This document shows positions 1 through 43,618 of a stretch of 50,799 nucleotides of DNA, in pieces. Within the stretch, counting starts at the first letter, position 1; each line of letters begins with the position of its first letter. The DNA is taken from positions 1 to 50,799 of IMG/VR virus record IMGVR_UViG_3300045997_000034. One strand, 5' to 3'. The notes below the pieces were generated by a model. It was given only the letters and a program-made list of their open reading frames with translations. It was not told where the DNA came from and did not search any database. The position numbers and the translations under genes were made by a program. Source of the DNA: a virus.

Positions 1-2392
1 CCATGTCTGGGTTAGCCTGGCGCTTCTGTGAGACTAGGGCGTTAGCAACGATCTGGGCTTGTCTTTCGAGGGGGCGATTGCTAACTGCTACGGCCAGCTT
101 AGCGTTGAGCGAGTTGACCTGAGGTTTGTACACCACCCTAGCAGAGGGCGATTGTTTGAGAGGGGGGGTTTCTTCTCGACTCTTACGTGCAAGATTGGCA
201 AGACTCTTGACACTGTTAGAGTAATCGGCATACACCTTCTCAATGTTCGTACCAGATGACAAGGTGTGTGCATCGTCAGTCTCGGCAAGCTTAGACGATG
301 TGATCTTCTTAACTACAACGTTGCCATCACGTCCGACAAACGATGCACCAGTGTCAACGTACACCTTCTTACCAGTGGCCTTGTCTACACCACCACCCTC
401 AGCTGCAGGCCTAGCCTTACGATCGTTCACCCTTACATCAGCACCTGCACGAGAGATCAGTGTAGATGCACCACCTGCACGCCCATCAGGCTTGGCTTGG
501 TACTTAGCCTTTAATGCAGCAATGCCGTTGTCTTTGGCCGAGGCTTTCCAGTCCAAGACATGTTTCTCAGCATCAATGACAACCATAGAGTGTCGGACAG
601 CACGAGCAATCTCATCCGTGTTGGCGCCCTTGATTGTCATGTCTGTGATCAGGTTTGACACATCCCCCATCTGAAAGCCCTTAGTGCGGCCAGATGGTTT
701 CTTTCCAGGAGGGTAGACTTCCTTCTTCGTCTTAGCATCCCATGTTCCGCCACCCATGGTAGGCATACCATCATACGGCGGATAGGAAGTCTTAGGATCG
801 AAGTTCTTCAGACCAGCCAATGCAGGAGTGGACTTGATCAAACCTTTGCCATTAGGGATTACTAGAACAGCATCCCCATCAAAGTCTGCTCCGGACAACC
901 TTTCTGCTACTCGAGAGTTAATCCCAACAGCATCAGTAGCTGCACCAAGAAGCTTCTTAGCTTCAGGATGGTTGTTGTTCACAGTGAGTTCGGGAATCTC
1001 GAAAGTTCCGCCATGAGGAAAGCGGACTAGAGCAACCCTTTCTCCAGGCCTGAAGTTTGGCGCATAGATCTCGTTGTCTTTCAGTGAGTTCACAGGCAGG
1101 ATCACATGTGTGCTCTGACGTGGAAGTGCTTTGGCCTTTAGATGCACAGCAGCAGAATCTGCACCATCAGCGAAGTCTTCTAACAACTTTCGCTTTACTG
1201 TTGGGTTGGTCAATGACATGATCTCTTCAAGCTGCTCTTTCTTACTCAAGTACGTAAGATCAAGTTGTGCCTTAGCAAACTTGGGACTTTGCTTAGACAA
1301 GAGCTGAGGAGCAAGGTTCTTAGACCACGTGTCCCAGACACCTTCTTCATTCACCTTGTTCATCACAGATGAGGGCATACCATCAGGACCCTTGATCTGA
1401 CGAACAATTGCACCAAACGGATTCTCAGGATCATCACTGATCTTCTTCATTGCATCTGTCTTGCGGCCTGTGTTTGACTTGTTCGTGTTGAACAACACAT
1501 CCACACCTGCAGGCAGGTCATCTTTGTACATGGCCATGCCTTTTAGGTAATGCGTTCCATCTACAAGAACGCGAACCTGTGCATACTGCTTTCCACCGAT
1601 AGACACGTCTTTTACGCCTGGACGAACGTACATCACACCGTCAGCGTCAGCACCACCATCTTCAGCATAGCGAATTCCAACTCTTTTGGAGCTGAGCGAA
1701 AGCGGAGGCTTTACACGATCGAAAGTCTCGCCACCGTCTTCACTACGATCCGCAATCTGCTTAATGTTTGCCCTGTTTTTAAAAACTTGAGAATAGGGCA
1801 CATTTGGCGCGGTGAGGACTTTCAGAGTGGTTTCTTTTCCAGTACCAAGCTGAACGACTTTGACATAGTGCACTTTGTAGCCTTCATTCTGCAAAACGGC
1901 AATTGCAGAGTTCAGCTTGTCTCGAGTGACCCCGACATGATGCTCGACACCACTGCCAATGTCGATGTACTCTTTCTTAGCAACTTGGTCTTTCAGCATA
2001 TTTGCCGTGACATGCATGACGTCAAGTTTGTCTTTCTGGCCCGGAGCCAACAGCGATCGAACAGAGGATTCGTTGATCTTCATACGTTCGCCAATAGCGA
2101 CGTTTGACAAACCCTTAGTTTTCAAGCGCTGAGCCATGTTGATCTGATCTTGCTTCTGACGATTCTTTTCAATCGTCTTCTGAACACGAAGTTGAGTTGT
2201 AGTGATGCCCAACCCCTTAGCAACCTCAGGTTCACTAAGGCCCTGTCGTTTCAGATCTTCAACCATGTCCAAGAATGACTTGTTTCGAGGACTGGCAGCG
2301 TCGTCTTCTCCACCTGAACCCCAAGGATAGCGCCCCGAGTGACGAGGAGTTCCATAGTGTGCAAGGTAATCCTCTTCATCAATCTCAAACAC
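1..2392 (-). CDS. RNA-polymerase-like protein (DFDGD motif), 3' end outside window
   Basis: The frame is open without a stop from the GTG at 2392 to the window edge, giving at least 797 residues. The GTG shares one base with the TAG of the upstream gene and follows GAGGAGG at seven bases. Residues 501-507 read GADFDGD, the loop that holds the catalytic magnesium in the double-psi beta-barrel of cellular RNA polymerase beta' subunits and of single-chain phage relatives such as YonO. Residues about 38-110 hold two helix-turn-helix-like segments (around LSEPEVAKGLGITTTQLR and LSNVAIGERMKINESSVR). Residues 12-27 form a tag, HYGTPRHSGRYPWGSG, resembling the H-[YF]-G tags of head-module proteins. 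Similar phage proteins are often left unnamed; polymerase activity is inferred from the motif. I did not identify the second barrel, bridge helix or trigger loop. Confidence 0.7.
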   Translation of the reverse strand, partial: MFEIDEEDYLAHYGTPRHSGRYPWGSGGEDDAASPRNKSFLDMVEDLKRQGLSEPEVAKGLGITTTQLRVQKTIEKNRQKQDQINMAQRLKTKGLSNVAIGERMKINESSVRSLLAPGQKDKLDVMHVTANMLKDQVAKKEYIDIGSGVEHHVGVTRDKLNSAIAVLQNEGYKVHYVKVVQLGTGKETTLKVLTAPNVPYSQVFKNRANIKQIADRSEDGGETFDRVKPPLSLSSKRVGIRYAEDGGADADGVMYVRPGVKDVSIGGKQYAQVRVLVDGTHYLKGMAMYKDDLPAGVDVLFNTNKSNTGRKTDAMKKISDDPENPFGAIVRQIKGPDGMPSSVMNKVNEEGVWDTWSKNLAPQLLSKQSPKFAKAQLDLTYLSKKEQLEEIMSLTNPTVKRKLLEDFADGADSAAVHLKAKALPRQSTHVILPVNSLKDNEIYAPNFRPGERVALVRFPHGGTFEIPELTVNNNHPEAKKLLGAATDAVGINSRVAERLSGADFDGDAVLVIPNGKGLIKSTPALAGLKNFDPKTSYPPYDGMPTMGGGTWDAKTKKEVYPPGKKPSGRTKGFQMGDVSNLITDMTIKGANTDEIARAVRHSMVVIDAEKHVLDWKASAKDNGIAALKAKYQAKPDGRAGGASTLISRAGADVRVNDRKARPAAEGGGVDKATGKKVYVDTGASFVGRDGNVVVKKITSSKLAETDDAHTLSSGTNIEKVYADYSNSVKSLANLARKSREETPPLKQSPSARVVYKPQVNSLNAKLAVAVSNRPLERQAQIVANALVSQKRQANPDM

Positions 2393-9802: not shown

Positions 9803-9852
9803 GGCAGATTCTCTCTTTCTACGGTTACGACGACACTGACGGTCGACCATGG

Positions 9853-10191
9853 TTAGCGCTTGATTTCCCGGAAGACAATACCGGCGTTCTGCAGAGCGTT
9901 AACGATCTGAGTTGTCTGATCGTCGTTCAAATAGAATTCACGACGGTCAACGATAACAACACGTTTGATCGCATCGTACACTTTCATCATTGTGTTTTCA
10001 TCATGGAATTCCTCGATCTCCTCGAGGTCACCCGTGAGTTCCAATTCATCCTCAAGATCCTGAGAATGCACCGAGACAGCGGCGAAATTGATACCGTTGT
10101 CCAGAGCGACAGTCGATAGGAGATTATACGCTGTCGCCCATTCGTGCCCGCCTGGCTTGGTAACCAGGGTAAGACTCAGCATGTGGCTCAT
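9853..10191 (-). CDS. Hypothetical acidic protein, 112 aa
   Basis: The ATG overlaps the TGA of the preceding membrane peptide (ATGA). The centre is very acidic (SQDLEDELELTGDLEEIEEF). The C-terminus, IVNALQNAGIVFREIKR, recalls the protein at 8428. No known domain. Confidence 0.7.
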   Translation of the reverse strand: MSHMLSLTLVTKPGGHEWATAYNLLSTVALDNGINFAAVSVHSQDLEDELELTGDLEEIEEFHDENTMMKVYDAIKRVVIVDRREFYLNDDQTTQIVNALQNAGIVFREIKR

Positions 10192-14448: not shown

Positions 14449-14685
14449 CTACCGATTACTGTGGTACATGAGCCACTCGATGCACTTCTCGATTTCGTTT
14501 GCGTCCTCTTTATAGAACGGGTCGCGCAAAGAGCCTCGAACTTGATACTGCTGCCACGGAGTCATGCAGTTGAAGAAAGCCTGACCGGGGCGCTGAATAT
14601 CCTTCTTACGAAGAACTTTGTAAGATTGCCAGGCACCAATGTCGCAGTATTCTTTCAGGAAATCCTCGATCAGACTTTCATCCAT
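14449..14685 (-). CDS. Hypothetical protein, 78 aa
   Basis: A small helical protein (MDESLIEDFLKEYCDIGAWQ at the start) placed directly after the giant polymerase gene, nine bases from its stop. No domain recognised. Confidence 0.65.
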   Translation of the reverse strand: MDESLIEDFLKEYCDIGAWQSYKVLRKKDIQRPGQAFFNCMTPWQQYQVRGSLRDPFYKEDANEIEKCIEWLMYHSNR

Positions 14686-14694
14686 CAGATGCTC

Positions 14695-17600
14695 CTATGT
14701 TAGAAAGGCGTCGATGTCGCCAAACTTTGAGATGGTCTTGCGGGCGTCAGAAACAAGCCCGTCGAAGTAGTTCATGTCAATTTCCAATTCTTCACCGAGG
14801 TCCTTTGCAATCTCGGCCTCAATCCAGAAATGACCCTTGGTGCCAGTCACTGCGTGGAACTTGTCGTCGACCTTTCGGTAGAGAATCCCACCGCCAGACT
14901 CGTCCGTCACCGGAACGAAACGACCGATCCGTCCGACAAAGTGCATGCCCTGATAGTTTGCCATTGGCTTCTGGACCGCGTCAAAGTCCAGATACATAGC
15001 GCCCTTGGAAACCTGCTTGGTCTCGCACATGTCATCAAACGTGGGGTTCTCGCCGCTGAACAGAGCCTTGAAGACATACGGATGCTGGAACTGTGCGCCA
15101 ACAGCCTTCCACGAATATGCGAACGGCTTCCCGTCTTCGATGCCGGCAACTTCGCGAGCAACGTACACCGCGTCATTGACAAGACAGAATCGTTCGTACG
15201 TCGCTTCATGCTCGAAGTCGTATCCGTACTTAGCCCCGAAATCAGTTACAAACTCGATGATCTCCGGAGTAGCATTGGGAATCTTGATCGAGTCCGTCTT
15301 GATATGCGCGACTGTGAAACCCTTCTCCTTGACGGCGTGCTTCAGATCGATCATGAACAAAGCTCCACGCTTTGCAACGATGTTGTCCTTGTTGCGTGGA
15401 TCGCGGAACGGATTGTCAAACTTCGCCGAGGTCAGACCGTAGACGATGTTGATAACAATCTTCAGCGCATACGAGAGCGCTGCTGCGTCCTCTTCCTTTG
15501 CCAGGAAAGGAGCAAGCTTGCCGCCAAGCATAGTTCTGGCAGCCCCGTAATCGCGATGTTTGATCGCCATCCGAGCCTGCTTGAGTGCTGAGAAATTCGG
15601 TGTGTAGTCCCCGAAGAGGTTGAGGACTTCGATCGATGTGGGATGCATAGACGCCACATCGAGAAGAGCAACATCGTGATAGATGCCAGGCTCCGCATAG
15701 ACGTATCCGCCTTCTCCAACTTCTTCGTCACGATAAGAACTCTTTCCCATGTCGTAGGTGTATCCGGGGAACTGGATACTGAGATCGGTGTACAGGAAAT
15801 TGGACTGAGGGTTCTTGTCCGTCCCAAAAATGATTCGGGCTGTGTGACGCTGAGTGGTGTCATTGACCGACAACCCCGACAAGTCTGCCAGGATCTGACG
15901 TGCAACAAAGTCCTGCTTTCGAGACACGTGTGTTGCCTCTGTTGCTTCAACGTCGTTGCAGCAGTAATCGACAACCTTCGGCCAATCCTTTTCATCAACC
16001 GGCTGGTCCCAGGGCAAGCTCATTTCCTGATGACGAATACCCAGCTCGATCTCAAACTTCTTCAGAGACTGCTTCTTGGACGAGTAGTCGTAAATATCCG
16101 TGTACGAGAGGTTGTAGGCCTCGCCGAACATTCCGCCCTTGTTGTCAATGATCTTCTGCGACAACTTGTAGAGACCCTCGTTGGTGTAGCCCATGAAGGC
16201 GCCGTAGAGGATATGGTTGTCGTATCGCCGGTTGTTGAACCCGACAAGCTTGAATTTGAACAGCGCCTCAACATCTTTTGCTGAGGGGTTGATCATCTTG
16301 TTGATCTGATACTTTCGGTCCGGAGTATCTTCGAACTTCCAGCAAATAACAAAGAGGTTCGGATAAACCTCAATGTCGAAGAACACGATCTGGCTGTTTG
16401 CAGCCCCAGCTTCAACCGTCTTGGCAACGACGTCCTGACCACCTGACGTGCCATTGACCAATTTCATCTGCATGACTGTACGCAAAGCCACCATTGGCTG
16501 ATTTGAGGAGTTGTTGGCGAAAGCAATAAGCCGAGGCTTGAGATCGCTCACGTCGTACATCAATCCCGCTTGCGAGGCATCGTCCAGAATCTTCTTGATG
16601 AAGTCCACCGAGGATTTGGTGCCCGGATGAATCTCCTTTCGGAGGTTACGGGCGATTAGCTCTCGAAGACTCTTCTCACTCTGGATAGTAGTAGCACTCA
16701 GCACGGGGGTCTCCTTTATAGGCAATCCACTGTTTATGGTGGCGACTGGGACGTTGTTGCACGTAACCAGGCGTCGGCGAAGGGCTCCGTTTCCGGAATA
16801 TACCTTGACTTCGATTCCTGGCTCAAACTCGTTTCTAAGGACTGAAGTGTCTCCATCGTAAATATAGTGGAGGTGGACTCCTGCCCCTGACTTGCTGAAT
16901 TCCGCGTACGTCGCCGGCCAGCTGCTCGCTGCCTGGAGGTTAAGCTCAAGAGACTTCTCTCCATTACCATCCTTCAAATCAAAGTCAATGACGACGTGGT
17001 TCTCTGGAACTTGAACAAAGTGCAACTTCTTGGTATCAATATCCTGTAGAGTAGTCTCGACTTTGGCCCACTGGGCCTTTGGAATGCCATCTGCTGTGGC
17101 ATATTGAGCTGGCTGATCTTTGAGAAGCTCATCCAATAGCGAGTCTTCTTCCTCCATGACAAGCGAGAAAGTAGGCGTATCGAGTACCGGGACTTTGAAC
17201 TTACTGGCGTTGAACCCAGAGTAATAACTCCGCATTGTTTCGCCATCAATATTAACGCGATCCTTGAAGTCATCGAAGTAGTTTCGAAGTTCTTCTCGAA
17301 CCTTGTACTGCGGCAGAGGCTTTTCAATGCCCGTGTCTGTACAATACTCTTTGTAAAGAGCGTAGGCCTGCCGCAAAGACACGCCATCCTGAGAACGAAA
17401 GACGTCGTAATGCGCCTCGATGAAGTTGAAGAAGATATCGGTCTGAAGCATCATCTCAAGAGGTCGGTAGCTGTTGTAGTAGTTCTTTCCCAGCTCACGA
17501 TATACGTCGAGACAATGTGACGCGATAGCACCGAGTTCGAAATTGATCTTAGCCATCAGCGCATTGTAATGATTTGCAGGGATTCTTTTTCCGGTTGGGT

Positions 17601-19818: not shown

Positions 19819-20706
19819 TTAGATCTTGTCGATGATGACGCCATTGACGTTGAAATCGAGCAGGATGGAGCCCTCATTGCCGTTCACGAAATCGCGGACC
19901 GCCGGCGAGTCACCGTTGAAGATCCCGAAATCGACGAAGTTGTCACCCTCCGGGTCAATCACCCATCCGACAACCGCACCGGCCCGAGTCCGCTCAAGAC
20001 CGAGCATGTCGTAGACCTCGTTCAGGAAGATGTGTCCCTGAGCGTGAAGCAGGTTGTTGGCGAAGGCCTGCTTGGAACGCAGCGCCAGGTAGTTGTAGCT
20101 GGGCTCCCGGTTCCACTCCTTAGCCGACTCGTCGAAGAATCGAGCGTACGGAGAATATGCGTTCGGGTCGGCACGAGTGACCTTGACGGTCTTACCTTCC
20201 TCGTCCTTGACCTTCGTGATGACCGAACCGAAACGAAGCTCCTCTTCCTTCTCGGCACCGAACTCCGCACGAACGCGAGCCTGGTACTCGGAATATCCCT
20301 TGTCCAGAGCCGCGTAAGCAGCCATCAGACCAGCCTGACGCGAAGACATGATGTAGTGCGATCCGGTCAACAGACCGACGGAGGTCAGACCCATCAGAAT
20401 GGCCGGCCCGTACAGCTTGGTGACAGCAACGCCGGTCTTGACACGCAGCTTCGCCTTGTCCTTCGCCTTGTCACGATCGCTGTAGTCCGGGTGGTCCACA
20501 ACAGACTCGATGAGCTCGGCAGTAGCCGCGGCCTCGGTCAGAATATCGTCGAGCTTGAGCGTTGCCCGGCAAGCCAGAACGGTAGATCCGACAGCGCCGA
20601 CAACACCAGCCGTGAAGAGGATGATCGGAGAGTGCTTCTGAGCCTGCAGCATCGGACGACCGACGACCTTCAGGACCGATTCGGGAAGACGAGAAGTGAG
20701 AAACAT
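19819..20706 (-). CDS. DUF6353-like membrane protein, 295 aa
   Basis: ATG at 20706, eight bases after AAAGGAG. Two hydrophobic stretches (ILFTAGVVGAVGSTVLA and PAILMGLTSVGLLTGSHYI) flank a charged helix, and YAALDKGYSEYQARVRAEFG follows, as I recall for DUF6353. A paralogue lies at 23476. Codons are strongly GC-rich at third positions (nine TAC to two TAT for Tyr), as in the capsid gene, implying high expression. Function unknown. Confidence 0.7.
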   Translation of the reverse strand: MFLTSRLPESVLKVVGRPMLQAQKHSPIILFTAGVVGAVGSTVLACRATLKLDDILTEAAATAELIESVVDHPDYSDRDKAKDKAKLRVKTGVAVTKLYGPAILMGLTSVGLLTGSHYIMSSRQAGLMAAYAALDKGYSEYQARVRAEFGAEKEEELRFGSVITKVKDEEGKTVKVTRADPNAYSPYARFFDESAKEWNREPSYNYLALRSKQAFANNLLHAQGHIFLNEVYDMLGLERTRAGAVVGWVIDPEGDNFVDFGIFNGDSPAVRDFVNGNEGSILLDFNVNGVIIDKI

Positions 20707-20719
20707 GTGTCGAGCTCCT

Positions 20720-20854
20720 TTAGATTTTGCCTTGGGCTTTAAGGCGGAAGAATATGGCAATGACTTGTTGGTCCGACATCTTGTTAACTTTCTGCGTCCA
20801 GGAAGTTGACAAATATGCGGACTTTAAAAGCTCACGCTGCTGGGTGATCGTCAT
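20720..20854 (-). CDS. Small protein, 44 aa
   Basis: ATG at 20854 with AAAAGG upstream, overlapping the previous small gene by 23 bases. The sequence (MTITQQRELLKSAYLSTSWT onward) is helical and basic. Its TAA lies just before the ribosome site of the DUF6353-like gene. Function unknown. Confidence 0.5.
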   Translation of the reverse strand: MTITQQRELLKSAYLSTSWTQKVNKMSDQQVIAIFFRLKAQGKI

Positions 20855-20976: not shown

Positions 20977-21627
20977 CTAGTCGAGTGCTACTGTTGAGGG
21001 CAAGCGGACCAAATATCCGTTTCTGACCCGCTGGACTTCTGAACCACGAATATCCGTCCAACCCCACTTCTGATCTGTAAAGCTGCCGGTTTCGCCAGCC
21101 AATTCGTAGAAATCGGCAACAGTGGCCTGCTCGTACTTAGCAATCAAGTCGAACAGACGATCGAGAACCTCTTCGGCCTCTGGTCTGGTCTCGAGAACCA
21201 GTTGGTCGAAGTTATGCGTTGCGCGAGACTTTGCGCTGATTCCCTGCCGCGGATTTTCGTGTGACGGCTTTTGTGCGAATCGATTGTAGCTGACATATCC
21301 AGCACCGGGACTACTAGCGCCAGATCCTCGAAAACTAGATCGACGATTTGTAGACCGAGACTCGCCAAACACCATCCGTTCGACATACTGCGTGACGGCA
21401 TCAGCAACCATGTCTTTTGCGCCTGGAAGAAGAACCTCCATCATGACATAACGCATTACGCTGTCGGAATCTCCAGCAATGAAGACCGACGTAAAGCGCT
21501 TACCCATGGAAGGCTTCTGACGAATAACCTTGCCTTCAGTAACCCGCTCGATCTTCTTGTCTTCGACGGGATCTTCGGCCTTACTCTTGTGGGTGTTTCC
21601 GGGGTATTCACTGTCAAAGCCGGACAT
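20977..21627 (-). CDS. Conserved phage protein of unknown function, 216 aa
   Basis: Start at ATG 21627 after GAGG. Features: a charged N-terminus with IERVTEGKVIRQKPSMGKRF, a conserved helix VMRYVMMEVLLPGAKDMVAD, the motif VFGESRSTNRR, a disordered Ser/Gly part with YVSYNRF, and a C-terminal AEEVLDRLFDLIAKYEQATV domain. I recall this layout from many Gram-positive siphophages, never characterised. A hairpin of the array terminator type lies upstream at 21651-21681. Confidence 0.7.
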   Translation of the reverse strand: MSGFDSEYPGNTHKSKAEDPVEDKKIERVTEGKVIRQKPSMGKRFTSVFIAGDSDSVMRYVMMEVLLPGAKDMVADAVTQYVERMVFGESRSTNRRSSFRGSGASSPGAGYVSYNRFAQKPSHENPRQGISAKSRATHNFDQLVLETRPEAEEVLDRLFDLIAKYEQATVADFYELAGETGSFTDQKWGWTDIRGSEVQRVRNGYLVRLPSTVALD

Positions 21628-21650
21628 ACATCCTCGTCTCGAAAATGGAA

Positions 21651-21681
21651 AACCCATAAACCGGGTTAGGGTTTAAAGGTT
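21651..21681 (-). terminator. Array-type hairpin upstream of the 216-aa gene
   Basis: Arms 21651-21662 and 21670-21681 (AACCCATAAACC against GGTTTAAAGGTT, two mismatches) with loop GGGTTAG. Read on the minus strand it follows the 81-aa gene and ends in TTTTCC. No promoter is visible between it and the next gene, so it may only attenuate. Confidence 0.5.
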
Positions 21682-21690
21682 GTGAGGGGG

Positions 21691-21936
21691 TTACTTGCGG
21701 GCTTCCTTGACTTCGATGTAGGCGGCGACAGTCTCGTCGATCAGTTTGTCAGTGTAGGTGCTGGCAGCATCGGCAACCATTCCTCCGACAGCGAACGATG
21801 CGACGGCGACAGCTGCTTGCTTGTGGGGCGGCAGGTCGTCGGGCAGGTTGTTGCGGATGATGGAGTACACGATGATTCCAGAACCGTATGACACAACGGT
21901 CGATACGAGTTTCTTCGCGATTTCGATCTTGGGCAT
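21691..21936 (-). CDS. Small membrane protein in promoter array, 81 aa
   Basis: GAAAGGA precedes the ATG. Hydrophobic parts: VSTVVSYGSGIIVYSIIR and AAVAVASFAVGGMVADAAS; C-terminal helix AYIEVKEARK. It has its own copy of the array promoter and a 3' hairpin. Codons are GC-rich, suggesting strong expression. Function unknown. Confidence 0.7.
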   Translation of the reverse strand: MPKIEIAKKLVSTVVSYGSGIIVYSIIRNNLPDDLPPHKQAAVAVASFAVGGMVADAASTYTDKLIDETVAAYIEVKEARK

Positions 21937-21948
21937 GATGGTCCTTTC

Positions 21949-21995
21949 GTAGGGGGTCTCACTATACAGCTTGTTATTCTTGCGAGACCCCCTAC
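21949..21995 (-). promoter_or_regulatory. Array promoter flanked by 12-bp inverted repeats
   Basis: Minus strand: TCGCAAGAATAACAAGC, then TGTATAGTGAGACCCC, with -10 TATAGT at 21966-21961. This copy alone is enclosed by a perfect inverted repeat, GTAGGGGGTCTC (21949-21960) and GAGACCCCCTAC (21984-21995), which could hide the -10 in a cruciform or bind a regulator. Confidence 0.6.
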
Positions 21996-22013
21996 AGAGT
22001 TAGAGGTCCGAGA

Positions 22014-22361
22014 TCAGTTGTTTCTGGTACGAACGTTCTCGCACTGTGTGACCAGAGTTTCGAACTTCTCGTGAATTGCTTCGAGATGCTGCATCAGTGT
22101 TTCCACCTCGGTAGTGGATGTCGCAACATCATCGCGAGCATCCTCGGCCATCTGGTGAGCCACCGCCTCATTGTACGACGGATATCCCTCCAGATTCATC
22201 TTTACCGTGAGTCCTTCGAAGTAGTCTGTGACCTGAGCGAGCGTTCCTGTGAGAGTGCTCAGTTCTTGCTTCACTCCAGAAATAGCCTGCGTCATCTCTT
22301 CCAAGACGGTATCGCAGTTCTGGACAGCCTGCTCAGCTTCATTGATGTTTTCGATGGACAT
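22014..22361 (-). CDS. Coiled-coil protein, 115 aa
   Basis: GGGAGG before the ATG. Nearly all helix with heptad-like patterns (AEQAVQNCDTVLEEMTQAIS onward). The next gene downstream codes for a protein of nearly the same size and design, so the pair is probably paralogous. Function unknown. Confidence 0.65.
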   Translation of the reverse strand: MSIENINEAEQAVQNCDTVLEEMTQAISGVKQELSTLTGTLAQVTDYFEGLTVKMNLEGYPSYNEAVAHQMAEDARDDVATSTTEVETLMQHLEAIHEKFETLVTQCENVRTRNN

Positions 22362-22393
22362 AGATGTTCCTCCCGTGTTATGTGTGAGTAATG

Positions 22394-22738
22394 CTACTTC
22401 TCAGAAATATGCTGCAGTTGCTGAACAACCGAAAGCATCTTGTCGTTGATGCCCAGAAAGATATCGTGCAACTCCTGTACGGGTTTTTTCACTTGCTGCA
22501 GTTCGAGTGAAATTTCGACAGCAGCAAGAGCAACTGCATTTTCACGCTCAGCCTGATAGCCATTAGTAACCATCAATGCTGACAGGTTACTAATATATTC
22601 AGTCATGACCGCAATACGAGCTTGCAGAGACTCGATTTGGTTAAGTGAAGCAATTGAATGCTCCATCTCAAGCTCAATTCCAGTCTGTGTACTCTGAGCG
22701 TACGCGATTGCTCCGATGAGATTTTCGATTTGACTCAT
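22394..22738 (-). CDS. Coiled-coil protein, 114 aa
   Basis: Start at ATG 22738 (MSQIENLIGAIAYAQS) after GGGAG; a longer frame to 22840 lacks a ribosome site. Entirely helical with heptads, ending MLSVVQQLQHISEK. It resembles the adjacent 115-aa protein in size and layout. Function unknown. Confidence 0.65.
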   Translation of the reverse strand: MSQIENLIGAIAYAQSTQTGIELEMEHSIASLNQIESLQARIAVMTEYISNLSALMVTNGYQAERENAVALAAVEISLELQQVKKPVQELHDIFLGINDKMLSVVQQLQHISEK

Positions 22739-22896
22739 GTGATTCTCCCGTAAAATATGAGTGTTTATCTGGGCAAGTAACTCAGGGCGCATGTTGCCGT
22801 CAGGATCGGCTAAACACGGCTGTCGTTTAAAGCTTAGCATCCGGAATAGGGCGAGACCCCCTAAAGGACCCTTGCTAGCTCCCCTTTAAATATGTG
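22739..22896 (-). other. Gap with a partial array motif
   Basis: This 158-base gap contains GCGAGACCCCCTA (near 22850), a piece of the array promoter's flanking sequence, and a weak hairpin AAAGG/CCTTT, but no full promoter and no gene that I can support. Confidence 0.4.
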
Positions 22897-23460
22897 TTAC
22901 TGGTTGTCGACGATCTTCGGCTGGAACTTTGCCTGACGCAACTTCTCGTACGCCTCCTGCAGCTCTTCCCAAGACATGTTCCCCAAATTTTCCAGCTCAG
23001 TCGCGGCAGTCGAGTTGATGCGCGGAGCTTCCACAATACCGCTCTGAATAAGCTCTCGAGCGGTATCGACGGCCACGGCCTTGTCCTGCGGCTTAGCCAG
23101 TCCAGAAGGAACAATCATGTTGATGAATTCAGCGCCGGCCTTGGCGTCAGACACCAGCTCCATGAACAGTTCAGAATATGCATCCGACTGCATGAACGCA
23201 TCCGTAATTTCCTGAGACTTGATGAATCGACGGCCGTCCTCACCACGTCGACCAACAGACTTCTGGATGATCATCTTGAACGTGTCGATGATCTTCTGTC
23301 CATCTTCGTCCGCGATCATGGCACGAACAAGGGCTTCGAGGCTTCCGCCCTTCGCGCCGAGCTGCATCTCAGCAAGATCGGCCTTGGACAAGCCGAAATG
23401 AAAGACCTCAGTGACCTGCTTGCCGTCAAGGTCTTCGAATGTGATTGCTTTCTTGAGCAT
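22897..23460 (-). CDS. Conserved phage protein of unknown function, 187 aa
   Basis: ATG 23460 with AGGG upstream. The N-terminus (KKAITFEDLDGKQVTEVFHF, then LSKADLAEMQL) and the region RRFIKSQEITDAFMQSDAYS match a family seen in phages of Gram-positive bacteria. It resembles tail-assembly chaperones in size and helix content, but it is far from the tail genes. Function unknown. Confidence 0.7.
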   Translation of the reverse strand: MLKKAITFEDLDGKQVTEVFHFGLSKADLAEMQLGAKGGSLEALVRAMIADEDGQKIIDTFKMIIQKSVGRRGEDGRRFIKSQEITDAFMQSDAYSELFMELVSDAKAGAEFINMIVPSGLAKPQDKAVAVDTARELIQSGIVEAPRINSTAATELENLGNMSWEELQEAYEKLRQAKFQPKIVDNQ

Positions 23461-23475
23461 GTGATTTTTCCCTAT

Positions 23476-24237
23476 CTATCGGTTGCGCCAGTAGTCCCGC
23501 GTACTGTCAAGATCGTAACTGACAAATATGCAGGGCCGGCCGTCTTCGGAAATAGTTGCGGTAAACTTCATGTCGAGCATGTGCTCTACGTTCCAACCAA
23601 CTTCATCGGAAACGTTGGTCTTTGGAATGCCGAGTTCGTTGTACAGATCGCTCAAAGAAGCATAGCTATTGTTGATGACTTCTTTGTTTACTGCGTTCTG
23701 AGCACGCTTCAGTTCTTCCATGCTGCTTTGGAAATATCGCCCAGTATAGCCGTCCATACAAAGGACATCTGTTCCGGTGATGATTACTTCCCGGCTGCCA
23801 GAAATACGATTGACTCGGTCTTGGGCAACTTCATCGCGAATAGCTTGCTCTTTGTTAGCGCCGAGCTTTTCGATTACTTTTTCTCGGTACTCGGAATAAG
23901 CCTTTTCAGAGAGGGTGAACGCAGCTGCAACACCAGCCGCTCGACGAGTTCCGATTCGATTTGCGCCGATGATCGCGGTGATGGTGAGAAGTCCCGAGCC
24001 CACTGCTGGGACGTAGAGCTTCCAGACGGTTTCAAAGTTCTCCTTCGGGGTGAACGGCTCAGCAGACAATCCTCGATATTTTGTCTCTTCCTCGAGGATC
24101 TGCATAGCTTTGTACGTTGCCGTGCCGGCCAAATATGCAGTAGTGACTGTCCCTACGACCCCAACAGATGTGAGCAGTGTTGGCGAATTGTCAATGAGTA
24201 GCTTTCTGGCACTAGTGACGACGTTCGCGAGAGTCAA
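23476..24237 (-). CDS. DUF6353-like membrane protein, second copy
   Basis: 253 residues from TTG 24237, eight bases after AAGGG; GTG 24246 is the alternative. Two hydrophobic segments (LLTSVGVVGTVTTAYLAG and AVGSGLLTITAIIGANRIG) precede FTLSEKAYSEYREKVIEKLG, then a C-terminal domain with LYNELGIPKTNVSDEVGWNV, which aligns with the copy at 19819. Two paralogues with different codon use suggest different expression levels. Function unknown. Confidence 0.65.
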   Translation of the reverse strand: MTLANVVTSARKLLIDNSPTLLTSVGVVGTVTTAYLAGTATYKAMQILEEETKYRGLSAEPFTPKENFETVWKLYVPAVGSGLLTITAIIGANRIGTRRAAGVAAAFTLSEKAYSEYREKVIEKLGANKEQAIRDEVAQDRVNRISGSREVIITGTDVLCMDGYTGRYFQSSMEELKRAQNAVNKEVINNSYASLSDLYNELGIPKTNVSDEVGWNVEHMLDMKFTATISEDGRPCIFVSYDLDSTRDYWRNR

Positions 24238-24640
24238 GAGTTTCACCCTTCATGTTGAATGGGTACACCATGGTTTCTTCTTCCGGAACGGTACCTTCTT
24301 GCAACCATCCCGGCACAGATCTCAACGGCGCCTGAATAACGGTCTTGTCGCCACCAGTAAGATCTTCTCGGAGTTTAAGAATATCTTTCTGCTGCTGAGC
24401 TTCGACTTCGGCGTCTTTCTCGCTCAAATCGTCGAAGAACTGAAGATCATCATTTGTTGGCAGACCGACAACCGAGCCGGCGGTGAGATGCTTTCCGTAC
24501 TTACTCTTCTGACGGGCCTGATATCCATCAATGATGAGAAGGCCGACAAGACCGAGTACGCAGCAGAGCAAAAATGCGAAACCGATGAGGGTCAATGCTC
24601 CGGCGAACATCAGGAGCTGCTGGACTTTCTCAGTGGGCAT
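24212..24640 (-). CDS. Membrane protein, 142 aa
   Basis: Two close hydrophobic stretches (LLMFAGALTLIGFAFLLCCV and LGLVGLLIIDGYQ) form one or two membrane helices, followed by a charged cytosolic part (DDLSEKDAEVEAQQQKDILK). Overlaps genes on both sides. Function unknown. Confidence 0.65.
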   Translation of the reverse strand: MPTEKVQQLLMFAGALTLIGFAFLLCCVLGLVGLLIIDGYQARQKSKYGKHLTAGSVVGLPTNDDLQFFDDLSEKDAEVEAQQQKDILKLREDLTGGDKTVIQAPLRSVPGWLQEGTVPEEETMVYPFNMKGETLDSRERRH

Positions 24641-24753
24641 GAGGGAAACTCTCTGTGATTTGGGTTTGGAAAGAAACGATCGTAGATCCAGATACCTGAG
24701 AACAAATATCCGATGAATAGAACCTGACAGAGAACGACGAGTAGCGCGGGCAT
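24610..24753 (-). CDS. Small membrane protein, 47 aa
   Basis: ATG 24753 after AAAGAGA. One hydrophobic segment (ALLVVLCQVLFIGYLFSGIW) then a short polar tail. It overlaps the next gene by 31 bases and lies just downstream of the strong hairpin at 24783-24813. Confidence 0.5.
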   Translation of the reverse strand: MPALLVVLCQVLFIGYLFSGIWIYDRFFPNPNHREFPSCPLRKSSSS

Positions 24754-24782
24754 CAGAGTCTCTTTCTGTTAGGCAAAAGGAA

Positions 24783-24813
24783 AACCCATAAACCGGGTTA
24801 GGGTTTATGGGTT
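24783..24813 (-). terminator. Array terminator, perfect stem
   Basis: Arms 24783-24794 and 24802-24813 are exact complements (AACCCATAAACC) with loop GGGTTAG, and a T-run follows on the minus strand. It lies after the 58-aa gene and is the best member of the hairpin family. Confidence 0.75.
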
Positions 24814-24821
24814 ATGAGGGT

Positions 24822-24998
24822 TCAGTCGATCTGGTCGTAGAACGTGTCGTACAGGTCGTGCTCCTTCAAGAAATCGTCGTGCTGCTTCATTCCGGCCTTG
24901 CTGATGGCCGCGCACACGATAACGGTGGCGGTGACAGCGAGGGCGGTCTTGTGCTTCTGGACGAAGGTCTTGGTGGGGCGGTAGACGTTGATGTTCAC
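24822..24998 (-). CDS. Small membrane protein in promoter array, 58 aa
   Basis: GTG at 24998 with TTAGGAG upstream. The sequence starts with NINVYRPTKTFVQKHKTAL, then the hydrophobic AVTATVIVCAAIS, then an acidic tail (EHDLYDTFYDQID). Codons are almost all GC-ending. It is a complete cassette with its own promoter and terminator. Function unknown. Confidence 0.7.
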   Translation of the reverse strand: MNINVYRPTKTFVQKHKTALAVTATVIVCAAISKAGMKQHDDFLKEHDLYDTFYDQID

Positions 24999-25017
24999 GG
25001 CTTACTCCTAAATAGAT

Positions 25018-25050
25018 GGGGTCTCATTATAAGCCGTGTAATTCTTGCGA
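25018..25050 (-). promoter_or_regulatory. Array promoter (58-aa gene)
   Basis: Minus strand TCGCAAGAATTACACGG, then CTTATAATGAGACCCC; -10 TATAAT at 25031-25026. No standard -35 hexamer, but the whole 33 bases are conserved across the array. Confidence 0.7.
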
Positions 25051-25054
25051 GCCA

Positions 25055-25087
25055 AAACCTATAAACCGGGTTAGGGTTTAAAGGTTT
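25055..25087 (-). terminator. Array terminator (48-aa gene)
   Basis: Arms 25055-25067 and 25075-25087 (AAACCTATAAACC against GGTTTAAAGGTTT, one mismatch), loop GGGTTAG, T-run on the minus strand. Directly followed by the next array promoter. Confidence 0.65.
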
Positions 25088-25095
25088 GTGAGTTG

Positions 25096-25242
25096 TCAGT
25101 CCTGGGTGATGTAGTCGTCCGGGTTCTGAATCATGTCGAGCTTCACAACGGCGATTCCGATGACGGCGGCGAAGGCAACCGAGAGGGTTGCGGTCACAGC
25201 GGTTTCGTGGGCGGCGGCGAAGGTCTTGATGGTGTTGAACAT
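25096..25242 (-). CDS. Small membrane protein in promoter array, 48 aa
   Basis: ATG at 25242 after AAGGAG. MFNTIKTFAAAHETAVTATL begins the single hydrophobic helix region (SVAFAAVIGIAVV), with an acidic tail NPDDYITQD. GC-rich codons. Own promoter and terminator. Function unknown. Confidence 0.7.
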   Translation of the reverse strand: MFNTIKTFAAAHETAVTATLSVAFAAVIGIAVVKLDMIQNPDDYITQD

Positions 25243-25266
25243 GGGGGTTCTCCTTATAATCAGGAT

Positions 25267-25300
25267 GGGGGTCTCATTATAAGGCCTGTAATTCTTGCGA
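25267..25300 (-). promoter_or_regulatory. Array promoter (48-aa gene)
   Basis: TCGCAAGAATTACAGG, then CCTTATAATGAGACCCC on the minus strand; -10 TATAAT at 25281-25276. Confidence 0.7.
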
Positions 25301-25302
25301 GG

Positions 25303-25337
25303 CAAACCTAAAGCCCGGGTTAGGGGCTCGAGGTTTG
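25303..25337 (-). terminator. Array terminator (75-aa gene)
   Basis: Arms 25303-25316 and 25324-25337 (CAAACCTAAAGCCC against GGGCTCGAGGTTTG, 12 paired bases around a 2x2 internal loop). Identical in arm sequence to the copy at 26286. Confidence 0.65.
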
Positions 25338-25342
25338 AGATG

Positions 25343-25570
25343 TCAGAACTTGGCTTTGGCGGCGATCTTCGCAATTTCGCAGGCGGTGTTCAAGATTCTT
25401 GCGCCAGCATAGATTGCTGTGGCGAGCTTTGCACCGTCCAATACCAGATCTTTGACAATGGGGAGCATTGTCTCTGGATCGAGATATGGATTGGGCAGAG
25501 CATCGTCACCAACAATTTTGCTGGCGCGAGGAGTCTTGGTGACACCGACGGTCAACTGACGGTTGAACAT
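25343..25570 (-). CDS. Small protein in promoter array, 75 aa
   Basis: GAAAGG before the ATG. N-terminal half polar (LPNPYLDPETMLPIVKD), C-terminal half helical and Ala-rich (KLATAIYAGARILNTACEIA), possibly membrane-associated. Own promoter and terminator. Function unknown. Confidence 0.65.
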   Translation of the reverse strand: MFNRQLTVGVTKTPRASKIVGDDALPNPYLDPETMLPIVKDLVLDGAKLATAIYAGARILNTACEIAKIAAKAKF

Positions 25571-25588
25571 GGCGTGGCCTTTCGTAGA

Positions 25589-25621
25589 GGGGTCTCATTA
25601 TAAGCCATGTAAAATATGCGA
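25589..25621 (-). promoter_or_regulatory. Array promoter (75-aa gene)
   Basis: TCGCATATTTTACATGG, then CTTATAATGAGACCCC on the minus strand; -10 TATAAT at 25602-25597. The upstream part is slightly diverged. Confidence 0.65.
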
Positions 25622-25623
25622 GT

Positions 25624-25659
25624 AAAACCTAAATACCGTGTTAGGGTATCGAGGCTTTT
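25624..25659 (-). terminator. Array terminator (86-aa gene), weaker stem
   Basis: Arms 25624-25637 and 25645-25659 pair with one bulge and a 2-base mismatch; loop GTGTTAG keeps the family TTAG. Confidence 0.5.
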
Positions 25660-25665
25660 GAGGTA

Positions 25666-25926
25666 TTACTCTGGGTTGACATACATGAGCGAGAACTCTC
25701 CGGCGGGTGTGTCAAACAGCCATCCAGTATTCGAGTCACGCATCCAGTTGGCGGTTGGTTCCGAGAGGTACAAGTGAGGAATGTCACCACTATCTTCTTT
25801 TTTGGAAAGATAGATGGCGGCGAGAATTCCAGTTGTAGCTCCGGCAGCAAGGGCAACTGCATAGGTGGCAGGGTTTTCTTTGATGTCTGCTTTGATCTTC
25901 GCGAGGGCGGTCTTGATCTTAAGCAT
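25666..25926 (-). CDS. Small membrane protein in promoter array, 86 aa
   Basis: ATG at 25926 after AAGGAG. A basic helix (MLKIKTALAKIKADIKENPA) precedes a membrane segment (TYAVALAAGATTGILAAIYL) and a polar C-terminal domain ending TPAGEFSLMYVNPE. Own promoter and weak terminator. Function unknown. Confidence 0.7.
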   Translation of the reverse strand: MLKIKTALAKIKADIKENPATYAVALAAGATTGILAAIYLSKKEDSGDIPHLYLSEPTANWMRDSNTGWLFDTPAGEFSLMYVNPE

Positions 25927-25942
25927 GGTGGTCTCCTTAGTA

Positions 25943-25975
25943 GGGGTCTCATCATAGGCCATGTAATTCTCGCGA
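25943..25975 (-). promoter_or_regulatory. Array promoter (86-aa gene)
   Basis: CGCGAGAATTACATGG, then CCTATGATGAGACCCC on the minus strand; -10 TATGAT at 25956-25951. Confidence 0.65.
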
Positions 25976-26007
25976 AACCCAAACACCTTGTTAGGGTATC
26001 GGGGCTT
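25975..26007 (-). terminator. Degenerate array hairpin
   Basis: Arms 25975-25987 and 25995-26007 keep 9 of 13 pairs and the TTAG loop. Probably a decayed member of the terminator family. Confidence 0.35.
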
Positions 26008-26012
26008 GTAGA

Positions 26013-26234
26013 TCAGCTTCTGTAGAGGGTTTTCTGGTCGTCGGTCATACCGTATCCACGCAGCCCGTTTTCGTTTCCCTCAACATAACCGTTGCGCCAT
26101 GCGCGGTCAGCACGCTCCGTACCGTTGTCGATTGCAGAATCGATCGCGGTGTGAAGCTGCTTGTCGCAGATAGCTTTGGTTGTGATGTGGGAGACGAACA
26201 GGGCAGCGATGATGGCAGCGATGAACTTGAACAT
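26013..26234 (-). CDS. Small membrane protein in promoter array, 73 aa
   Basis: ATG at 26234 after AAGGAG. N-terminal signal-anchor (MFKFIAAIIAALFVSHITTK), then a polar domain with AIDSAIDNGTERADRAWRNG and YVEGNENGLRG. Same length and layout as the next upstream gene at 26322, so the pair is paralogous. Function unknown. Confidence 0.7.
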   Translation of the reverse strand: MFKFIAAIIAALFVSHITTKAICDKQLHTAIDSAIDNGTERADRAWRNGYVEGNENGLRGYGMTDDQKTLYRS

Positions 26235-26250
26235 GATGTTCTCCTTAGTA

Positions 26251-26283
26251 GGGGTCTCATCATAAGCCATGTATTTTTTGCGA
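26251..26283 (-). promoter_or_regulatory. Array promoter (first 73-aa gene)
   Basis: TCGCAAAAAATACATGG, then CTTATGATGAGACCCC on the minus strand; -10 TATGAT at 26264-26259. Confidence 0.65.
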
Positions 26284-26285
26284 GG

Positions 26286-26320
26286 CAAACCTAAAGCCCG
26301 GGTTAGGGGCTCGAGGTTTG
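26286..26320 (-). terminator. Array terminator (second 73-aa gene)
   Basis: Arms 26286-26299 and 26307-26320, the same arm sequences as at 25303-25337, loop with TTAG. The next promoter begins three bases later. Confidence 0.65.
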
Positions 26321-26321
26321 G

Positions 26322-26543
26322 TTAGCCTTTCGGTCGGTTCAGAATGCGGTCAGCAGTCCTGTTGTCCGTACCGCCTTGCTTGTAACCGGCATCGTAACCT
26401 TTCTCATACGCACGATCAAGAGCGGTCGGAAGTGAAACGCGGTTTGCGTTTGCCTTCTTGGCGATCTTGTATTCGTAGTAATAAGCGGTAGCGATGACAG
26501 AAACGAACATGGCAATCAGGGCAACAACAATGATGTTGAGCAT
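26322..26543 (-). CDS. Small membrane protein in promoter array, 73 aa
   Basis: ATG at 26543 after GAAAGGA. Signal-anchor MLNIIVVALIAMFVSVIATA then a polar part with ALDRAYEKGYDAGYKQGGTD and NRTADRILNR, paralogous to the gene at 26013. Function unknown. Confidence 0.7.
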   Translation of the reverse strand: MLNIIVVALIAMFVSVIATAYYYEYKIAKKANANRVSLPTALDRAYEKGYDAGYKQGGTDNRTADRILNRPKG

Positions 26544-26560
26544 GATGGTCCTTTCGTAGA

Positions 26561-26593
26561 GGGGTCTCATTATAAGCCATGTAATTCTCGCGA
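26561..26593 (-). promoter_or_regulatory. Array promoter (second 73-aa gene)
   Basis: CGCGAGAATTACATGG, then CTTATAATGAGACCCC on the minus strand; -10 TATAAT at 26574-26569. A stray partial copy (TATAAGCCATGT on the plus strand) lies at about 26612-26623, possibly a duplication scar. Confidence 0.7.
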
Positions 26594-26625
26594 AGATCAA
26601 CTAAGCAAAAATATAAGCCATGTCA

Positions 26626-26680
26626 CCAAAACACAGACCACGTGTAAGCGGATTAGGCTCACAAGTGGTCTGTGTTTTGG
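26626..26680 (-). terminator. Strong bidirectional intrinsic terminator
   Basis: Perfect 16-base arms 26626-26641 and 26665-26680 (CCAAAACACAGACCAC) with a 23-base loop; A-run on one side and T-run on the other, the typical two-way terminator form. It follows the 95-aa gene and differs in sequence from the array hairpins. Confidence 0.8.
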
Positions 26681-26707
26681 GATTGACTATCTGGTAAAAC
26701 AGGTGTT

Positions 26708-26995
26708 TCAGCGAAGCTTCATGATGAAAGACACGGCTTTCGATGTGACGATGCCTGCTCGTTCATGGTTCAGAATCAGTAGGATTCCGGCAAGATTCGC
26801 GATCATAGTGGCCTTGGTGTCGGTTGACATCCCTTCGGGCTTTTCAGCTTCCTTGAGGTTGTGCAACTTGACCAAGTGGTCCACCATGTTCGCGTATTCT
26901 TCCGTATCAACACTGACCGTCTTCATGGATTCGAGCAGACGATCGACAGCGATCTCGAGCGCGGTGGTTTTAGGCGTGGTCTTCAGCTTGAACAT
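26708..26995 (-). CDS. Conserved phage membrane protein, 95 aa
   Basis: ATG after AGGAG. Pattern: TTALEIAVDRLLESMKTVS, then a YANMVDHLVKLHNLKEAEKP helix, then a membrane segment ATMIANLAGILLILNHERAG and ITSKAVSFIMKLR-type end. I recall this family from many Gram-positive siphophages, uncharacterised. It is the first gene of the array and has the same promoter type. Confidence 0.75.
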   Translation of the reverse strand: MFKLKTTPKTTALEIAVDRLLESMKTVSVDTEEYANMVDHLVKLHNLKEAEKPEGMSTDTKATMIANLAGILLILNHERAGIVTSKAVSFIMKLR

Positions 26996-27012
26996 GGCGT
27001 TCTCCTAGGTAG

Positions 27013-27045
27013 GGGGTCTCATTATAGGAGAAGTAATATTCGCGA
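27013..27045 (-). promoter_or_regulatory. Array promoter (95-aa gene)
   Basis: TCGCGAATATTACTTCT, then CCTATAATGAGACCCC on the minus strand; -10 TATAAT at 27026-27021. It sits within three bases of the holin stop and starts the small-gene array. Confidence 0.65.
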
Positions 27046-27917: not shown

Positions 27918-28194
27918 TCTGCTCACCCGCTTGACGGATTGCAGTACTGTTGCTAAATATAGCCGTGATAAGTGCATGTGTCGCCTTCCCTTGCTCGAGC
28001 AATTGCTCTGCTTGGGCGTCCGACTTGTCAGCTCGCTCTCTTTGCATCTCGAACGCTAGCTGCCATCGACTGGATTCTTCGGCTTTGTCTTTATAAACTC
28101 GCCGAGGGACCAAATATCCGAACATGAGCATGAGAACGCCAAGACCAAGAATTCCGCGAACGGTCAAAGTCTCAATAGGTATGCCCATGAACAT
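27904..28194 (-). CDS. Membrane-anchored coiled-coil protein, 96 aa
   Basis: AAGGAGG before the ATG. One membrane helix (GILGLGVLMLMFGYLVPRR) followed by a charged helix with AFEMQRERADKSDAQAEQLL. The design recalls spanin-like or holin-associated proteins of the lysis region, but no family match is claimed. Confidence 0.65.
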   Translation of the reverse strand: MFMGIPIETLTVRGILGLGVLMLMFGYLVPRRVYKDKAEESSRWQLAFEMQRERADKSDAQAEQLLEQGKATHALITAIFSNSTAIRQAGEQNVVS

Positions 28195-43021: not shown

Positions 43022-43618
43022 TTACTTTACGCGATACTCCATGGTTGTCAACCCGCCCCAAACAAGATCGGTTGGGTCAATGTCTTCTTCGAGAACTTTA
43101 AACCCCAACTTTTCATAAATATGTCTGGCGTCTGGAGAATTTCCAGGAACTTCGAGAGTTACCTTTTTGTAACCACCGGCTTTTGCTTGGTCTTGAACCG
43201 CACGCATAGCTTCAGTGGCATAACCTTTCCCTCGAGAACCCTTTTTGACGTCAATCCAATTCACATAGAGGTCATCTTCACTTTTTTTGGCAATGATGGC
43301 TTCGCCAAGTTTTTTGCCATCTTTGTCGTGGAGAGTAAGAAAGGCGCCCTTGTTGTACATGTTGGTGTATCTAGTGCTCAAACGAGATAAACCTTTAATC
43401 ATAGCGTTTGGCGGGTTTTTTGATATGACCAACTTGTCGCCACTTGCTGTGGTTCTTTCAATTCGATCTGGTCCAAGACCGACAAGCTTGGGTTTTGATG
43501 AAGTTTCTTTTCGAACGCCCCAATGCATACCCTTGACACCGAAGTGTTCAATCATGGAGTCTAAAGACGGCTTATCGGCATCCAAATATATGCGCTTTGT
43601 TTCGTGATGCGTTGACAT
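43022..43618 (-). CDS. Tagged GNAT acetyltransferase
   Basis: 198 residues, AGGAGG before the ATG. Residues 25-36 read HFGVKGMHWGVR, the head-module tag. Residues about 90-195 are a GNAT fold: LYVNWIDVKKGSRGKGYATE holds the acetyl-CoA pyrophosphate loop (G-S-R-G-K-G), followed by VTLEVPGNSPDARHIYEKLG and FKVLEE. It would acetylate an unknown substrate. Its place between terminase and portal plus the tag suggests an injected or head-bound enzyme. Confidence 0.78.
   Translation of the reverse strand: MSTHHETKRIYLDADKPSLDSMIEHFGVKGMHWGVRKETSSKPKLVGLGPDRIERTTASGDKLVISKNPPNAMIKGLSRLSTRYTNMYNKGAFLTLHDKDGKKLGEAIIAKKSEDDLYVNWIDVKKGSRGKGYATEAMRAVQDQAKAGGYKKVTLEVPGNSPDARHIYEKLGFKVLEEDIDPTDLVWGGLTTMEYRVK

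Follow-up and report, generated by a model that had tools for sequence, protein, structure and literature searches.

What reads the near-identical repeats that precede a series of small genes in the middle of a viral genome, and what does their regular spacing mean for the genes between them? The question is raised by the IMG/VR virus record IMGVR_UViG_3300045997_000034, which is classed as linear and all 50,799 bases of which were analysed (hereafter the window). Its minus-strand genes begin with lysis and structural genes on the right, continue with an array of small genes (27.0-21.7 kb) and end with replication genes and a truncated RNA polymerase gene on the left. The record stops inside this last gene (1-2391, minus strand) and so lacks the true genome end, which in relatives holds about 110 further codons and a short last gene. 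The phage comes from soil and is probably a lytic siphovirus. The sequence argues strongly that the array is made of independent promoter-gene-terminator cassettes in which the repeat is probably the promoter, and we lean slightly towards the view that this array of independent cassettes is read by the phage's own single-chain RNA polymerase.

Eight near-identical 33-nt copies of the repeat lie on the minus strand between 21953 and 27045, all of them where the preliminary description had put promoters. With a position weight matrix (PWM) of the 33-mer they score 41-52 bits, against 10.2 bits for the next best site in the window and 18.8 bits for the best site in 30 dinucleotide shuffles. The distance from the start of TATAAT to the start codon is 25-34 nt in all eight and each start codon has a Shine-Dalgarno sequence, from which the motif lies apart; this is not the ribosome-site placement of the start-associated sequences (SAS/ESAS) of other phages. 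The eighth copy is set between the arms of a 12-bp perfect inverted repeat, GTAGGGGGTCTC / GAGACCCCCTAC (21942-21989, minus strand).

The preliminary description missed that the promoter is that of a whole phage lineage with an RNA polymerase gene of its own. By blastn the motif was found in 207 phage records, of which the weakest few may be chance, from phages of Gordonia, Arthrobacter, Streptomyces, Rhodococcus, Microbacterium, Curtobacterium and Lactococcus and from oral siphoviruses, and a pattern scan of IMG/VR gave at least 119 stretches (the IMG/VR sets used here are samples). The consensus is TCGCR-N6-ACA-N5-TATARTGA, followed by a GACCCC leader. When 449 distinct copies were anchored only on CGC, ACA, A-11 and T-7 they returned TCGC[AG]-N6-ACA-N5-TATA[AG]T-GA, with the GA in 97% of them. 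Copies in 14 records were all on the coding strand, the reversed-pattern control giving none, and in complete genomes they cluster in the central region. The core in Lactococcus phages is TTACA-N5-TATAATGA; phage P162 carries 12 copies of ACA-N5-TATAAT, followed by G or A and lacking TCGC, and several of these stand directly behind T-rich terminators. The GACCCC leader was considered as a general part of the promoter and rejected, being common in actinobacterial copies and absent from the Lactococcus and tRNA-linked ones.

The -10 element of a canonical sigma-70 promoter, TATAAT, is present in the motif, but TTGACA at 16-18 nt is not. Neither a conserved -35 nor an extended -10 (TGn) was found in the 449 copies, and classical TTGACA-N17-TATAAT promoters were not enriched over shuffles in six genomes. 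These results bear on one explanation, that the repeats are plain strong host sigma-A promoters which spread with their genes by duplication and need neither a dedicated polymerase nor an activator. Two paralogous pairs among adjacent cassettes would agree with such spreading, and the genome announcements of phages Vardy (PMC9671010) and Conley (PMC10868162) report the motif as sigma-70. However, the motif is conserved among phages whose polymerases are only about 40-55% identical and whose cassette genes are unrelated, which points to selection rather than recent copying as what holds it. Besides lacking a -35 and a TG extended -10, it is virtually absent from cellular DNA: across 84,980 cellular genomes the only matches to the complete pattern were three copies on one 4-kb scaffold of a metagenome-assembled genome (MAG). 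We regard plain host promoters as improbable. The scaffold in question (QHXL01000552.1, locus L232; 4.1 kb, binned to an Acidobacteria MAG) is probably a misbinned piece of phage DNA.

A role in translation or repression is less probable still. The repeats would then be operators or start-associated sequences comparable to SAS/ESAS or to the stoperators of other actinobacteriophages, and their closeness to start codons, their conserved leader bases and the label of translational start site used by the authors of the Mossy announcement (PMC11008172) could be read in this way. The SAS/ESAS of cluster K mycobacteriophages and the motifs of Microbacterium phages of clusters EC, EF and EG (PMC7302621) are likewise short conserved repeats upstream of small genes; they either coincide with ribosome-binding sites or consist of short repeats, asymmetric or inverted, whereas the block in the window resembles an entire promoter and is often paired with a terminator. 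Moreover, conservation is strongest in the -10 and upstream blocks and not at the ribosome site. One copy in Rhodococcus phage ReqiPoco6 stops 7-8 nt short of a tRNA-Ala gene (TATAAT at 14623-14628 of locus L129, tRNA from 14636), and further copies in ReqiPoco6 and Tanis precede stretches that have no Shine-Dalgarno sequence. Such placements argue against a translational role, and we consider operators or start-associated sequences very unlikely. As the ReqiPoco6 copy leaves only 7-8 nt before the tRNA, we infer a transcription start site just after TATAATGA.

The tRNA-Ala behind the ReqiPoco6 promoter (both within 14605-14711 of locus L129) is the only one of its kind called by ARAGORN; the same promoter also stands before tRNA-like sequences in Lactococcus phage P162 (24237-24330 of locus L128) and in the oral Caudovirus D_HF5_2C (9848-9900 of locus L239). 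Other copies, at 28078 of locus L131 and at 43076 and 45795 of locus L129, are followed by GAGAACCCAC or AGAAGGGATAG with no Shine-Dalgarno sequence or open reading frame (ORF), and tandem short repeats sometimes accompany such ORF-less copies (Avazak, Artorias). These copies are candidate promoters of small non-coding RNAs.

The other recurring element of the array is a hairpin. The preliminary description had noticed seven hairpins of one family, and seven were indeed confirmed between 21650 and 26319, with a constant CTAAC(N)(N) loop and stems that covary. Standard pairs occupy 95.6% of the paired cells across the seven, and double-sided changes were counted in 13 cells, against 4.9 +/- 1.6 after column shuffles and 0-2 when the alignment was slid. 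An Rfam search of the array gave no match. The claim that a terminator-promoter pair stands between every two genes held in part: five of the hairpins (25055, 25304, 25625, 25975 and 26287) abut the next promoter within 0-4 nt, but those at 21650 and 24782 close a gene and are not followed by a promoter, and at three promoters a preceding hairpin of the CTAAC family is missing. Two of these three (21953 and 27013) follow no hairpin of that family, and the promoter at 26561 is preceded by a different and very strong one. This latter hairpin, between cassettes 1 and 2 on the minus strand, has 24-nt arms that are 92% complementary and a 7-nt loop, and is unlike the other putative terminators. The association of folded structures with the promoter extends to the relatives. 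For 421 copies the 45 nt upstream had a mean folding z, relative to shuffles, of -1.23, compared with -0.25 in control stretches, and z was below -2 in 32% as against 8% of the control. Runs of T occurred upstream of 170 of the 449 copies and runs of A upstream of 43. Taken on their form, the hairpins are likely to act as terminators.

A different arrangement was observed in 33 of the 449 copies, where GGGGTC lies just upstream of the promoter (CCCCTC in 1), almost never together with an upstream T-run; 29 of these 33 keep the downstream GACCCC. Such an inverted repeat is possibly an alternative to a terminator.

If each gene has its own signals, closely related phages could differ by whole cassettes, and recombination at the repeats, as the preliminary description proposed, would swap, add or delete them. 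Three pairs of relatives support this. Tanis and Gravy share 99.8% identity across about 14.7 kb, in which Tanis (and Gill) has exactly 323 bp extra. The extra DNA is one terminator-promoter-gene unit, its gene a homologue of Gill gene 36, bounded by a 43-bp perfect direct repeat (CCAAAGCCTAACCCCACAAGGGTTATGGTTTTTCCATTCGCAG) that comprises the terminator and the first part of the promoter; in Gravy there is a single copy of the repeat and the gene is absent. Avazak and Artorias differ by one cassette of 356 bp with break points at the same terminator-promoter elements, and Perkunas and Conley by one of 320 bp with the break at the CTCGC of a promoter. Terminator-promoter zones account for only 8-9% of the array. 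The gene set is thus not invariant among related phages: gene content varies between conserved end cassettes, and the families of the first (F1), last (F9) and an inner (F6) cassette of the window recur at the ends and inside of the array of Tanis and relatives, with different genes between them. Accessory genes could in this manner be exchanged without breaking an operon, each bringing its own start and stop signals, which would also supply the homology for the exchange.

The eight cassette genes of the window encode proteins of 48-95 residues. Most had been described beforehand as short single-pass membrane proteins, some of them paralogous; the small size and two paralogous adjacent pairs were recovered (26322/26013, E about 3e-4; 25096/24822, E about 1e-5), and a membrane helix was predicted in five of the eight but not in the other three. 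Both the helices, which come from a simple hydropathy predictor, and the E-values, which come from short proteins, are approximate. Among relatives the median length of the first gene product downstream of a motif copy is 77 residues; a membrane helix is predicted for 222 of 389 such genes, compared with 30 of 150 control small ORFs. The cassette proteins gave no informative match in Pfam.

The question of which enzyme reads the promoter can be approached through the genes that accompany it. In the records examined a protein of about 900 residues (gp92 in Tanis) is encoded at one genome end and filed under phrog_4291, 'RNA-dependent RNA polymerase'. Nine sequences of this protein, including that of the window, share an invariant SGADFDGD (the DxDxD catalytic motif). 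A sequence search against solved structures gave no meaningful match, and a fold comparison was therefore needed. It was made with a model of a full-length homologue built from an alignment of viral-collection loci (predicted local distance difference test score, pLDDT, 78.7; predicted template modelling score, pTM, 0.55). In Foldseek the model matched QDE-1 (E 3.8e-7) and the RNA polymerases of the P23-45 group of phages (E about 1e-6 to 1e-5); whole-chain template modelling scores were low (0.2-0.34), which supports a match of fold and not of overall domain arrangement. The polymerase was found in 250 phage records from nearly the same genera as the 207 records with the motif, and 30 of the 31 IMG/VR motif contigs of at least 40 kb encode phrog_4291. 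Conversely, in 15 polymerase contigs longer than 29 kb that the motif scan had not returned, the motif occurred at no more than one mismatch in all 15, on one strand only, with at least two copies in 13 (reversed-pattern control, 0 of 28). Among the genes common to the window, Tanis, ReqiPoco6, Scap1, Teacup and P162 this polymerase is the sole known transcription protein, which makes it the leading candidate reader. The annotation of its homologue in Lactococcus phage 1706 as 'structural protein' suggests that the enzyme is packaged in the virion.

A scheme can be proposed on this basis. A YonO/QDE-1-type DNA-dependent phage polymerase, possibly carried in the virion, would read a promoter specific to its lineage. 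Each cassette would be monocistronic, with the promoter, a Shine-Dalgarno sequence, one gene for a small (mostly membrane) protein and usually a hairpin terminator abutting the next promoter, and the cassettes would be expressed independently of one another. Homologous recombination between terminator-promoter repeats would cause single cassettes to be lost, gained or replaced. In its widest form, in which the motif with the core given above is the cognate promoter of a widespread QDE-1/YonO-type polymerase family, recognisable from Streptomyces to Lactococcus phages and driving interchangeable one-gene cassettes for small membrane proteins, perhaps as infection begins, the proposal is tentative and our confidence in it falls just short of even.

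Several observations weigh against the polymerase as the reader or against the independence of the cassettes. The co-occurrence of motif and polymerase is confounded by descent, as the primase-polymerase (prim-pol) and other genes are found in the same phages (about 250 records each). One 43.8-kb motif contig (G045) has no polymerase, and two polymerase contigs (G059 and G065) have a single motif copy each. Host sigma-A has exactly TATAAT as its -10 consensus, which would be a strange coincidence if an unrelated polymerase were the reader, and in four copies of the window a weak -35 resembling TTGCCT stands at 18 nt. The gene adjoining the array (20977-21657, minus strand; phrog_4079, function unassigned) is conserved as far as Lactococcus P162 and, among the alternatives to the polymerase, is the strongest candidate for a transcription factor. 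As to the hairpins, their stems are stable (-10.7 to -18.8 kcal/mol) but the runs of U are short and in part belong to the stem itself, and a terminator scan of the array region was near chance (9 compared with 7.7). Finally, other insertions and deletions in more distant pairs of phages do not all end at terminator-promoter zones.

The sigma-A -10 box and the joint descent of the genes keep the main rival explanation well alive. Host RNA polymerase with sigma-A could be directed by a phage activator or a sigma-appropriating protein bound at the TCGC/ACA block (about -31 to -18), while the phage polymerase serves other genes. A perfect -10 (TATAAT/TATAGT) with no -35 and a block centred near -30 to -20 resembles activator-dependent promoters, the four weak -35-like hexamers would fit, and the phrog_4079 protein, present even in Lactococcus P162, could be the activator. 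The middle promoters of phage T4, which are used by host polymerase with the phage factors MotA and AsiA, have a good -10, no -35 and a protein-binding box near -30; the motif of the window is like them in its -10 without -35 and its upstream box. No MotA-like protein was identified in this analysis, and the gene set common to all compared genomes holds no conserved helix-turn-helix protein besides the polymerase. Moreover, the typical actinobacterial sigma-A -10 is TANNNT, and the middle of the -10 in the motif (TATA) is more invariant than that. One core is also kept across hosts of two phyla. Host polymerase with an activator is on balance the less likely reader, and the phage polymerase is preferred.

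A comparable pairing is known from the P23-45 group, in which a conserved AT-rich motif before pre-early genes goes with the virion RNA polymerase and relatives without the polymerase lack the motif (PMC10770324). In that group two-barrel single-chain polymerases read a motif of their own before (pre-)early genes, and motif and polymerase co-occur. P23-45 has two enzymes, one fused to the tape measure, whereas the phage of the window has one free-standing gene at the genome end; the comparison covered fold and the pairing of motif with polymerase. YonO of SPbeta is likewise a phage single-chain DNA-dependent RNA polymerase, similar to phrog_4291 by type; unlike the one-gene cassettes of the window it serves one long late operon, and its authors left its promoter sequence undetermined (PMC5467207). 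Promoter recognition by single-chain two-barrel phage polymerases outside the P23-45 group is largely open, and a rigid conserved candidate makes the question testable with cultured phages. The candidate promoter would be tied to one polymerase family in about 250 sequenced phage records and hundreds of environmental contigs, and could provide an orthogonal promoter-polymerase pair for actinobacteria.

By array DNA the nearest annotated relatives of the window are the Gordonia phages of cluster DJ. As in Tanis and other DJ genomes, a TATAAT-containing intergenic motif lies upstream of ATG in the central region, with the same sequence and position. Many genes are in common, but DNA similarity is confined to the primase region and the repeats; the prim-pol is about 65% identical at best, which makes the window a more distant relative, and its tail and holin genes are nearer to Scap1. 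The view that the arrangement is undescribed is not borne out. The announcements of Vardy (PMC9671010), Conley (PMC10868162) and Pherobrine/Burley (PMC9753669) already describe a recurring TATAAT motif together with terminators and membrane genes, and that of Mossy (PMC11008172) links the repeat with rearrangements. The 50-bp/43-bp intergenic motif arrays of cluster DJ are like that of the window in motif, central region, terminators and membrane genes, and a 2026 paper reports that clusters CC, AM, AW, AU and DJ have in common a large number of small transmembrane genes at the centre of the genome. The array as such is not new. The four announcements are limited to DJ and assume a sigma-70 or start-site role, with no link to a polymerase, base-resolved loss or wider conservation; new here are the spread of the promoter across a phage lineage, its tie to a single-chain polymerase and the base-resolved cassette difference.

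Table 1. Positions of the polymerase gene, putative promoters, putative terminators and cassette genes in the window
Feature	Positions	Strand	Basis
Single-chain two-barrel RNA polymerase gene, phrog_4291, DFDGD, 794 aa, cut by record end; proposed promoter reader	2..2383	-	phrog_4291 match, 1152 bits
Putative promoter copy 1 (TCGCGAATATTACTTCTCCTATAATGAGACCCC)	27013..27045	-	PWM 42.5 bits
Putative promoter copy 2	26561..26593	-	PWM 52.2 bits
Putative promoter copy 3	26251..26283	-	PWM 48.5 bits
Putative promoter copy 4	25943..25975	-	PWM 49.7 bits
Putative promoter copy 5	25589..25621	-	PWM 46.2 bits
Putative promoter copy 6	25268..25300	-	PWM 49.9 bits
Putative promoter copy 7	25018..25050	-	PWM 51.0 bits
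Putative promoter copy 8, with flanking 12-bp inverted repeat	21953..21985	-	PWM 41.0 bits
Strong hairpin with a long stem behind gene 1, a likely terminator of another family	26626..26680	-	-43 kcal/mol with flanks
Terminator-like hairpin abutting promoter copy 3	26287..26319	-	folding, covariation
Terminator-like hairpin touching first base of promoter copy 4	25975..26007	-	folding, covariation
Terminator-like hairpin abutting promoter copy 5	25625..25657	-	folding, covariation
Terminator-like hairpin abutting promoter copy 6	25304..25336	-	folding, covariation
Terminator-like hairpin abutting promoter copy 7	25055..25087	-	folding, covariation
Terminator-like hairpin, 12-bp perfect stem, end of contiguous array, no promoter after	24782..24814	-	folding
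Terminator-like hairpin ending gene 8	21650..21682	-	folding
Cassette gene 1, 95 aa, F1, phrog_5818; family common to first cassette of Tanis and relatives	26708..26995	-	
Cassette gene 2, 73 aa, one predicted membrane helix, paralogous to gene 3	26322..26543	-	
Cassette gene 3, 73 aa, one predicted membrane helix	26013..26234	-	
Cassette gene 4, 86 aa, one predicted membrane helix	25666..25926	-	
Cassette gene 5, 75 aa	25343..25570	-	
Cassette gene 6, 48 aa, one predicted membrane helix, paralogous to gene 7, F6	25096..25242	-	
Cassette gene 7, 58 aa, start codon GTG, one predicted membrane helix, phrog_12653, F6	24822..24998	-	
Cassette gene 8, 81 aa, phrog_7539, F9, conserved last cassette of relatives	21691..21936	-	

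Two paralogous genes of the DUF6353/phrog_2152 family lie in or beside the array on the minus strand (19819-20760 and 23476-24246), and homologues were found in all compared phages including that of Lactococcus. In the Streptomyces phages Rainydai (MH155877) and pSt2402 (PV588687) the primase/polymerase matches fall in two pieces with other genes between them, corresponding to a split or interrupted replication gene.

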